Source: Bifidobacterium breve
GTDB taxonomy: Bacteria; Actinomycetota; Actinomycetes; S36-B12
Assembly: GCA_945901095.1 (NCBI GenBank)
Contig: CAMDKQ010000007.1
Location: 1 to 35,685 of the forward strand
DNA length: 35,685 nt
Reading direction: 5' to 3'
Positions 14,652-31,077 of this stretch are shown here, in pieces (within the stretch, counting starts at the first letter, position 1; the number at the start of each line of letters is the position of its first letter). The position numbers and the translations under genes were made by a program. The notes beneath the pieces are model-generated. The model was not told the origin of the DNA. It did no database searches and was given only the letters and a program-made list of their open reading frames with translations.

Positions 14652-14680
14652 ATGACAGGGAGTCGAAGTGCCGCTAGTGT
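14652..14680 (+). promoter_or_regulatory. Predicted promoter of ilvB leader (ATGACA - 17 bp - TAGTGT)
   Basis: -35-like 14652-14657 and -10-like 14675-14680 spaced 17 bp; expected start coincides with the leader GTG at 14688. Confidence 0.6.
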
Positions 14681-14687
14681 ATGTTGC

Positions 14688-14726
14688 GTGGCAAAGAATC
14701 TTGTAGTTATTTGGCGCGCGGGCTGA
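14688..14726 (+). CDS. ilvB leader peptide [12 protein letters not shown] (BCAA attenuator)
   Basis: GTG GCA AAG AAT CTT GTA GTT ATT TGG CGC GCG GGC TGA; consecutive Leu-Val-Val-Ile codons upstream of an intrinsic terminator and ilvB. Confidence 0.82.
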
Positions 14727-14747
14727 CATACGTCGACCGGCGCGCCG

Positions 14748-14780
14748 CCCTCCGTTACCCAGCCGGGTCGGGGGGTTTTT
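14748..14780 (+). terminator. Attenuator terminator upstream of ilvB
   Basis: CCCTCCG-tt-ACCC-agcc-GGGT-CGGGGGG followed by TTTTT. Confidence 0.8.
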
Positions 14781-14847
14781 CATTGGGACGGTCACGCGTC
14801 AGCGACTGGATCAAGTATCACCGACACGAGAGATTGGCGACAACAGG

Positions 14848-28207: not shown

Positions 28208-29362
28208 ATGAGCGCGGTGGCTGAAGAGGGCGTGGCTGAACATGGCACGGCTGAACATGGCACGGCACTGTGGCCAATCGCGATCACCGAGAACGCGTCG
28301 CCCGTCACGTCCGTGCGTCGGGCTGAAATCCTTGCCAATCCCGGATTTGGGCGCTACTTCACCGACCACATGGTCACCGCACAGTGGACATCGGATCATG
28401 GATGGCACGAGGCTGAACTCGTCCCGTACGGGCCGATCAGCCTTGACCCTGCGACGAGTGTTCTCCACTACGGTCAAGAGATTTTCGAAGGGCTGAAGGC
28501 ATATCGCCACGCTGATGGTTCGGTCAAGACCTTCCGACCGATGCGTAATGCCGCCCGATTCGCCGCCTCGGCCCGGCGTCTGGCGATGGCGGAGCTTCCA
28601 GAGGAATTGTTCCTCGGGTCGATCGAGGCGCTCGTTCGTCAGGATCGCGCCTGGGTTTCCGGGGAGGACGAGCGATCGCTCTACCTGCGTCCGTTCATGA
28701 TTTCCACCGAGGTGGGTCTTGGTGTACGGCCAGCCAACTCCTACCAGTACCTGCTCATCGCCTCACCGGCGGGCGCATATTTCCCCAACGGGATTAAGCC
28801 AGTCTCGGTATGGCTCTCCGACGACTATGTGCGCGCGGCACCGGGTGGAACCGGCGAGGCAAAATGCGGCGGAAACTACGCTGCGTCCCTCGTGGCGCAG
28901 GCTGAGGCCGCGCAGCATGGCTGCGATCAGGTGGTCTGGCTCGATGCGGTCGAACGGACCTGGATCGAGGAGATGGGCGGCATGAATCTCTACTTCGTGC
29001 GGGGCTCCGGTGATTCCGCACGGCTCGTCACTCCTCGACTCACCGGCTCGCTCCTTCCCGGCATCACCCGGGATTCACTCCTTACCGTGGCGATGGACCA
29101 CGGCATCCGTGCCGACGAGGAGCCGATCAGTGTCGGCGATTGGCGTGACGGATGCCAGAGCGGCGAAATAACCGAGGTATTCGCCTGCGGCACGGCTGCG
29201 GTCATCACGCCTGTTGGCCACGTGAAGTCGCGGCAGAGCGGCGCCTGGTCGATCTCAGGCGGGCTGACCGGGCCGGTGACAACGCTGCTTCGTCAGGCAC
29301 TCCTCGACGTTCAAACAGGCGCTGCGCCCGATCCCCACAACTGGATGCACACCATCTGCTAG
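28208..29362 (+). CDS. ilvE: Branched-chain amino acid aminotransferase
   Basis: 384 aa from ATG 28208; [43 protein letters not shown]. Confidence 0.96.
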
Positions 29363-29371
29363 GTTTAGGCT

Positions 29372-29401
29372 GTGCATTACATCACCATCATTATTTCCTA
29401 G
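29372..29401 (+). CDS. cimA leader peptide MHYITIIIS (Ile attenuator)
   Basis: GTG CAT TAC ATC ACC ATC ATT ATT TCC TAG: 4 Ile of 9 codons, directly upstream of two hairpins and cimA; TAGGTT -10-like element at 29360-29365. Confidence 0.8.
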   Translation: MHYITIIIS

Positions 29402-29425
29402 CGCGTCGACCACCGGTCGACGCGC
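29401..29425 (+). promoter_or_regulatory. Perfect 11-bp RNA hairpin overlapping the leader stop codon
   Basis: GCGCGTCGACC-acc-GGTCGACGCGC. Confidence 0.85.
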
Positions 29426-29427
29426 AG

Positions 29428-29453
29428 CCCTTCGCATCCGCGGGGGGTTTTTT
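29428..29453 (+). terminator. Attenuator terminator upstream of cimA
   Basis: CCCTTCGC-atcc-GCGGGGGG (8 pairs, two G-U) followed by TTTTTT. Confidence 0.82.
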
Positions 29454-29484
29454 CATGTGCAGAGCACCGCACGAAAGGCGCATC

Positions 29485-31077
29485 ATGAGTCGTCCAGATG
29501 GATTCCACGTGTTTGACACGACCTTGCGCGATGGCGCCCAGCGGGAGGGCATCTCGTTCTCGGTCCACGACAAGCTTGCCGTTGCACGGCTTCTTGACGA
29601 GTACGGGGTCGGATTCATTGAGGGCGGCTGGCCGGGTGCGATGCCGAAGGACACTGAGTTTTTCGCGAGGGCGCAGTCCGAGTTGACCCTGCGCAACGCC
29701 CAACTCGTGGCATTCGGTGCCACCCGTAAGGCGGGCGTGAAGGTAGAGGAGGACCTTCAGGTACGAGCGCTGCTGGACTCGGGGGCGCCGGTGGTGACGC
29801 TCGTGGCGAAGTCCGATGTTAGGCATGTCTTGGAGGCGCTGAAGACCACGCTGGACGAGAACGTCGCGATGGTGAGTGACACTGTGCGGTTCATCGTTGG
29901 CGAAGGCCGGCGCGTATTCGTCGACATGGAGCACTTCTTCGACGGCTACAAGCACGATCCCGACTACGGGGTCCGACTGCTCGTCGCGGCATTCGAGGCG
30001 GGTGCCAGCGTCGGCGTCCTCTGCGATACGAACGGCGGCATGCTTCCGAGTGGTATCCATGCGACGGTCAACGATGTCCGTGAGCGTTCCGGCGTCCGGA
30101 TCGGGATTCACTGCCAAAACGACACGGGCTGCGCGGTCGCGAACACGATCTCGGCGGTTGAGGCCGGTGCCACCCATGTTCAGTGCACCGCCAATGGCTA
30201 TGGGGAGCGCACGGGCAACGCCGACCTGTTCCCGGTTGTTGCGAATCTCGAACTCAAGCTCGGCATTGAGTGCCTACCGGAGGGCAATCTGCGAGAGACC
30301 GTCCGGGTATCGCATGCGATCGCCGAGATCACGAACATCGCGCCCGATACCCATCAGGCCTATGCCGGCGTCTCGTCATTCGCGCACAAGGCGGGGCTCC
30401 ATGCGAGCGCCCTAAAGGTGAATGCCGAGCTTTACAACCACATTGACCCGGCACTCGTCGGCGGCAACCAGCGGGTCCTCATCACAGAGATGGCTGGTCG
30501 GGCATCTGTTGAGCTCAAGGGACGCGAGCTTGGCTACGACCTCTCCGAGGACCCAGAGCTCCTCACGAGGGTCGTTGAGCAGGTGAAGGAACTCGAGTCC
30601 AAGGGGTGGACGTTTGAGGCGGCTGATGCGTCGTTCGAACTTCTGCTTCGCGGGGAGGATGGCCTCGCCAAGGCGTTCGAGGTCGAGTCCTGGCGCACTA
30701 TCGTCGAGCAGTTGCCCGACGGTGCAGTGAAGAGCGAGGCGACGGTCAAGGTCTACGCAGGCGGCGAGCGCATTATCTCGACGGCCGAAGGGAACGGGCC
30801 GGTGAATGCGCTGGACAAAGCCTTGCGCGCCGCGGTCATGCAGATCTACCCGGAGCTCGAGGCCCTGAGGCTGGTCGACTACAAGGTTCGAATCCTTGAG
30901 GGCGCAACGGGAACGGGAGCGGTCACTCGAGTCCTCGTCGGCACGACCGATGGCACGAGCGAATGGTCCACCGTTGGAGTCCACGAGAATGTCATCGCGG
31001 CGTCTTGGCGAGCGCTCGAGGATGCAGTGATGTTCGGGCTGCTGAGGAATAAGCGTGCGTCCGAGGAGCCTGCCTGA
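29485..31077 (+). CDS. cimA: Citramalate synthase
   Basis: 530 aa from ATG 29485; FDTTLRDGAQREGISFSVHDKLAVARLLDEYGVGFIEGGWPGAMPKDTEFF, LCDTNGGMLP, GIHCQNDTGCAVAN. Confidence 0.93.
   Translation: MSRPDGFHVFDTTLRDGAQREGISFSVHDKLAVARLLDEYGVGFIEGGWPGAMPKDTEFFARAQSELTLRNAQLVAFGATRKAGVKVEEDLQVRALLDSGAPVVTLVAKSDVRHVLEALKTTLDENVAMVSDTVRFIVGEGRRVFVDMEHFFDGYKHDPDYGVRLLVAAFEAGASVGVLCDTNGGMLPSGIHATVNDVRERSGVRIGIHCQNDTGCAVANTISAVEAGATHVQCTANGYGERTGNADLFPVVANLELKLGIECLPEGNLRETVRVSHAIAEITNIAPDTHQAYAGVSSFAHKAGLHASALKVNAELYNHIDPALVGGNQRVLITEMAGRASVELKGRELGYDLSEDPELLTRVVEQVKELESKGWTFEAADASFELLLRGEDGLAKAFEVESWRTIVEQLPDGAVKSEATVKVYAGGERIISTAEGNGPVNALDKALRAAVMQIYPELEALRLVDYKVRILEGATGTGAVTRVLVGTTDGTSEWSTVGVHENVIAASWRALEDAVMFGLLRNKRASEEPA

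Follow-up and report, generated by a model that had tools for sequence, protein, structure and literature searches.

The citramalate synthase gene cimA of the genome studied here is preceded by a short leader that is best explained as an isoleucine-responsive, leader-peptide transcription attenuator. Judging from sequence and comparison, we place the probability of this full explanation at roughly 0.86, and the broader statement that the element is an isoleucine-responsive attenuator of cimA appears slightly more secure still. The leader lies in a window of 35,685 nucleotides, the whole stretch of DNA that was analysed, and every feature located below is on its forward strand. Comparison among genomes reveals that a short open reading frame (ORF), its isoleucine codons, its frame, two hairpins, the contiguity of these hairpins and their link to cimA recur together. 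A first-pass annotation had proposed an isoleucine-rich leader peptide and attenuator at this site. It was right about what is present and very probably right about the function as well.

Organization of the cimA leader

The leader is located between ilvE, encoding a branched-chain aminotransferase (28208-29362; NCBIfam PRK13357 and TIGR01123, above cut-off), and cimA (29485-31077). The downstream gene had been taken for citramalate synthase, and a TIGR00977 score of 603 bits against an NCBIfam cut-off of 450 bears this out. A threonine ammonia-lyase gene is present in the genome as well; cimA is therefore probably not the sole source of 2-ketobutyrate but one of two routes to it.

The leader ORF (29372-29401) has the codons GTG-CAT-TAC-ATC-ACC-ATC-ATT-ATT-TCC-TAG and translates as MHYITIIIS, the nine-codon peptide with four isoleucine codons that had been described earlier. 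These codons begin at 29381, 29387, 29390 and 29393. The first is a single ATC (29381-29383), and the others form the run ATC ATT ATT (29387-29395), the last two codons of which are the conserved sensor positions. A -10-like box, TAGGTT (29360-29365), stands six bases ahead of the GTG, and the TAG stop codon of ilvE is part of it. The spacing is as expected for a leaderless mRNA and suggests that the transcript is one, with a putative transcription start at the leader. The ilvE stop codon is likewise used in the -10-like box of six relatives (L003, L005, L006, L007, L020 and L046).

The stop codon of the ORF overlaps a perfect 11-bp hairpin, as first noted. This hairpin, H1 (29401-29425), has arms at 29401-29411 and 29415-29425 and the loop ACC, and its first base is the G of the TAG. 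It is contiguous with an intrinsic terminator hairpin (29426-29449), and both are supported by folding and by covariation. The terminator stem covers 29428-29447, or 29426-29449 if A-U and G-U closing pairs are included. The gap of 2 nt that had been reported between the hairpins is correct when the closing pairs to the U-run are left uncounted, and it shrinks to 0 nt in the minimum free energy fold. The six Ts said to follow the terminator are found as a conserved U-run at 29448-29453, and a Shine-Dalgarno-like GAAAGG (29473-29478) precedes cimA. Folding of the 84-nt leader gives a z score of -7.3, with none of 200 shuffles as good. The window contains the motif Ile-Ile-Ile-X-TAGCGC a single time, against 0.01 expected. 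H1 and the terminator both form together in the free RNA, so the switch is not thermodynamic.

Conservation of the leader and its isoleucine codons

Eighty cimA loci were gathered by protein similarity rather than by the leader, and 79 of them had enough upstream DNA. The leader is present at 73 of the 79, and conservation of the ORF and its isoleucine codons, on which the first-pass annotation had staked its reading in advance, is thereby borne out. Leaders from beyond the order were detected by means of a model trained on cimA leaders and carry that bias, from which the figure of 73/79 is free. Six loci are without the leader (L063, L064, L067, L071, L080 and L081), and in the first four of these the ilvE-cimA gap is just 57-60 nt. 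A leader-free cimA is also seen in some lineages: family f31, whose small genomes are mostly 1.2-1.8 Mb, keeps cimA and has almost no model matches, which counts against the explanation. Five metagenome-assembled records titled Bifidobacterium breve (L003, L004, L005, L037 and L067) have cimA loci that are 73-97% identical in protein to that of the Nanopelagicales-like window, and their titles are probably wrong.

The consensus order of elements is a start codon, a short peptide, Ile-Ile, one variable codon, TAG, a hairpin beginning GCGC, the terminator and the U-run. Ile-Ile stands at the two fixed codons in 98 of 105 cimA leaders and in 0 of 25 ilvB leaders (p ~ 1e-20, uncorrected for relatedness), and the 25 ilvB leaders have Val at one of these positions and Leu, Val or Ile at the other. 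The proposal of an isoleucine-only sensor for cimA is supported by this difference. At one fixed position the cimA leaders use ATC 60 times and ATT 42 times, and at the other ATT 86 times and ATC 15 times. Because the two codons interchange, it is the amino acid that is conserved rather than the base. Isoleucine accounts for 27% of the residues after the start codon in cimA leaders.

The frame is conserved together with the codons. When a -10-like box plus ATG or GTG was sought regardless of frame, 83 leaders yielded just one candidate, and in every one of them it was in frame with the isoleucine codons, where one third would be expected, relatedness being uncorrected here too. A box of the form [TC]ANNNT lies 4-8 nt ahead of the in-frame start in 97 of 104 cimA leaders, and the spacing is 6-7 nt in 87 of these 97.

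The hairpins sit just 3' of ilvE in the window, as they would if they were merely the terminator of the ilvE operon and the small ORF had arisen by chance. The comparative data reject such an origin, which we consider extremely improbable: the isoleucine codons, the frame and the putative leaderless start are all conserved, the leader accompanies cimA even at loci with no ilvE or with ilvE at a distance of over 700 nt, and the covariance model of the leader picks out the leaders of cimA and ilvB and does not pick out the ends of other genes.

Covariation within the hairpins and the search for a third helix

Compensatory stem changes, which the first-pass annotation had suggested looking for in alignments of relatives, were found in both hairpins. 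Changes on both sides with pairing kept occur at 10 of 19 pairs among 48 sequences, in an alignment not fitted to the structure, and at 14 of 19 pairs among 91 sequences, in an alignment that was fitted to it. In the larger set they are divided between H1 (7/10 pairs) and the terminator (7/9 pairs), and 0 of 500 shuffles equal the observed counts. Sliding the partner column by one to three positions abolishes the signal. H1 and the terminator adjoin directly (0 nt) in 107 of 122 leaders and are never more than 2 nt apart in the others, with some closing pairs using the U-run. Of 25 further terminator-like sites in the DNA that was fetched, none is preceded by a contiguous hairpin, a sample too small to weigh much.

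A classical trp-type attenuator would have an antiterminator that shares bases with both hairpins, formed from the 3' arm of H1 and the 5' arm of the terminator. C. glutamicum ilvBNC is an established case of the classical model, with a GCC as the overlap (PMC11857589), and a weak GCG/CGC mini-hairpin could form in some cimA leaders. No co-evolved H1-terminator pairing was detected in duplex energies, as cognate strands bind no better than strands swapped between species. Shuffled strands form the stronger duplexes in three of four comparisons, a pattern that looks like avoidance of pairing. No third helix emerged from mutual information across the 91 leaders (about 37 effective), and the ten best covarying pairs all fall within H1 or the terminator. 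These results speak against a shared-base antiterminator that the tests have missed, and we regard one as unlikely. Pairing with CGC or CGT of the terminator was also considered as the reason for the invariance of GCGC in H1, and was rejected; 3-5 pairs are possible in some leaders, with energies no better than those of cross-species strands. The attenuator reading as first put forward holds for the ORF, the codons and the hairpins, and a shared-base antiterminator of the classical type is unsupported.

The leader could instead control the translation of cimA or the stability of its mRNA, and translational attenuation by a leader ORF is mentioned for cysteine genes of M. smegmatis (PMC13236596). 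We consider this highly improbable for cimA, in view of the conserved intrinsic terminator and U-run that intervene between leader and gene. The leader hairpins, moreover, have no conserved stable pairing with the Shine-Dalgarno region of cimA, and H1 and the terminator are self-contained.

A model for isoleucine-responsive termination

We infer stalling, readthrough and the polarity of H1 from the arrangement of these parts. A promoter ending in TAGGTT would produce a leaderless mRNA that starts at the leader GTG, as its position and conservation suggest. When charged tRNA-Ile is ample, the ribosome would reach the TAG, with the 5' arm of H1 entirely covered, and RNA polymerase would be stopped by the terminator ahead of cimA. 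When isoleucine is scarce, the ribosome would halt at the first isoleucine codons, H1 would be free and formed, and polymerase would continue into cimA. With H1 touching the base of the terminator, closure of the last terminator pairs inside RNA polymerase may be blocked, with no bases shared between the two hairpins.

This polarity is derived from a geometry model in which the ribosome reaches about 12 nt beyond the first base of the A-site codon. The predicted median coverage of the 5' arm of H1 is 0% for a ribosome at the first isoleucine codon, 40% at the last and 100% at the stop codon. In about 16 leaders the stop is shifted into H1, and the distance from the last isoleucine codon to H1 is still near 5 nt. 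Taken with the ribosome geometry, these leaders indicate that a well-fed ribosome would remove H1 and a starved ribosome would leave it. In the model of M. tuberculosis ilvB1, for which the polarity is experimentally supported, the antiterminator is masked when the ribosome has reached the stop codon and left free when the ribosome stalls (PMC13236596). The polarity obtained from geometry matches this model, and on that analogy H1 is taken as an antitermination hairpin, an assignment to which we give even odds.

The opposite role for H1 is a serious, though less likely, alternative. H1 would then aid termination as a stacking or pause hairpin, whose lower, invariant GCGC would be opened by a ribosome at the last isoleucine codon, and termination would be cut. 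Such a ribosome does cover about 40% of the 5' arm, the pairs at the foot of H1 hardly vary, and the abutting terminator permits stacking. However, starved ribosomes are expected at the first isoleucine codon, where H1 is left untouched, and H1 is fully covered once a well-fed ribosome has reached the stop, even more so in the displaced-stop variants. A helper role also leaves the leader with no antiterminator whatever.

Distribution of the scaffold and its sister leaders

A covariance model of the cimA leader has two matches in this genome, the cimA leader itself (82 bits) and a leader of ilvB (30 bits, E 4e-4). The latter is a second copy of the scaffold before ilvBNC, consisting of a leader of 12 residues, H1 and a terminator (14688-14781; covariance match 14700-14781, supported by the fold). 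Its region (14675-14781) resembles that of cimA in being apparently leaderless, with a TAGTGT box, a stop inside H1 and the same hairpin-terminator scaffold. A GGGC in H1 of this ilvBNC leader could pair with GCCC of the terminator, as in Corynebacterium.

Within the class, the model matches 187 of 297 genomes. Among 58 class-wide matches that were fetched, 40 lie before cimA, 13 before ilvB, 1 before leuS, 2 before threonine ammonia-lyase and 2 before a possible ACT-domain protein. Outside the class, matches elsewhere in the phylum lie mostly before ilvB; at two of them the gene is cimA and the codons are ATC ATC ATT. The scaffold is conserved over dozens of actinobacterial families. By sequence, its matches are concentrated on branched-chain genes, and the candidate sensor codons change with the gene. 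The description of the attenuator as dedicated to cimA is accordingly apt for the sensor codons and too narrow for the architecture, which is also found before ilvB, leuS and ilvA-like genes.

Several individual leaders illustrate the range of the scaffold. In two genomes (L207 in G200; L208 in G182) it precedes an ilvA-like threonine ammonia-lyase gene, the other route to 2-ketobutyrate, and the leaders end in M-A-I-T and M-G-I-T. In two others (L184 in G228; L189 in G155) an isoleucine-rich leader and scaffold, with the isoleucine codons of L189 in the sequence RIII, precede the gene of a protein of ~100 amino acids that has a weak, sub-threshold ACT-domain match. Leucine codons occur in the leader MNRALLA before leuS (L194, G254) and in MSQNLLLT before a LeuA/CimA-like synthase gene (L224, G377). 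In the large Streptomyces-like genomes G274 (L209) and G075 (L220), a long extension at the apex of H1 makes the cimA leader easy to overlook.

A combined picture would have an antitermination hairpin that excludes the terminator by contact alone, so that the outcome would depend solely on where the ribosome stands, on a scaffold whose sensor codons are swapped among cimA (Ile), ilvB (Leu/Val), leuS (Leu) and ilvA-like genes (Ile) across Actinomycetota. As a whole, we regard this picture as rather doubtful.

Novelty and significance

To our knowledge, little has been reported on how bacteria control the citramalate route to isoleucine. No published leader or attenuator of cimA was found in the literature searched, which covered few of the subscription journals, and the cimA attenuator is apparently a widely conserved element that is undescribed so far. 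The well-studied genera Mycobacterium and Corynebacterium are, as far as we know, without cimA, which may explain why its leader was missed. The isoleucine-specific switch of cimA appears to have been kept in many actinobacterial families, Streptomyces-like genomes included. The scaffold is short and modular and its sensor codons are interchangeable, which should make it easy to test and reusable as a biosensor. It also raises the testable question of whether an attenuator can work without a base-sharing antiterminator.

Comparison with known attenuators

At curated thresholds, none of 4227 Rfam families matches in the window. The best relaxed match, to the tandem hairpins of Streptomyces-metH RNA (RF03076), reaches 22.9 bits against a gathering threshold of 50 with a six-base deletion and is taken as chance.

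The trp, his and ilv attenuators of Enterobacteria operate through alternative hairpins that share bases. The cimA leader resembles them in having codons for the end product in a leader peptide and a terminator before the structural gene, and differs in its putative leaderless start and in having no detectable base-sharing antiterminator. Since a shared-base antiterminator found no support, the cimA leader is not classed as a classical trp-type attenuator.

The ilvB1NC leader of M. tuberculosis likewise has a short ORF with branched-chain sensor codons (LVVI) and an intrinsic terminator, and changing LVVI to AAAA abolished induction (PMC13236596). That leader is 166 nt long, senses leucine, valine and isoleucine for acetohydroxyacid synthase, and has a mutually exclusive antiterminator and terminator (PMC13236596), whereas the cimA leader is shorter, would sense isoleucine only and has an H1 that shares no bases with the terminator. 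In Corynebacterium, the ilvBNC leader and the ilvB-II motif also have a terminator controlled by an upstream ORF, with adjacent antiterminator and terminator bases. The ilvBNC leader has a GCC overlap and an anti-antiterminator, in contrast to the cimA leader, where neither an overlap nor a third helix is supported (PMC11857589, PMC10272879).

A similar layout is seen in the ilvB leaders of Streptomyces and other Actinobacteria, which combine a leaderless peptide, branched-chain amino acid codons, a hairpin and a terminator (PMC8079986, PMC1262725). The peptide IlvL of S. lividans, MRTRILVLGKRVG, is one such Streptomyces ilvB leader (PMC8079986). The sensor codons of the Streptomyces ilvB leaders are Leu-Val-Val/Leu, whereas those of the cimA leaders are Ile-Ile. 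In the S. coelicolor ilvB leader, mutation of the candidate codons was reportedly without effect, which counts against a codon-sensing attenuator (PMC1262725). The catalogued actinobacterial leaders include those of ilvB, leuA, leuS, trp, cys and others, and cimA is not among them (PMC8079986, PMC1262725). By the sequence features compared here, the cimA leader belongs with the leaderless actinobacterial branched-chain amino acid leaders of ilvB (PMC1262725, PMC8079986, PMC10272879, PMC11857589).
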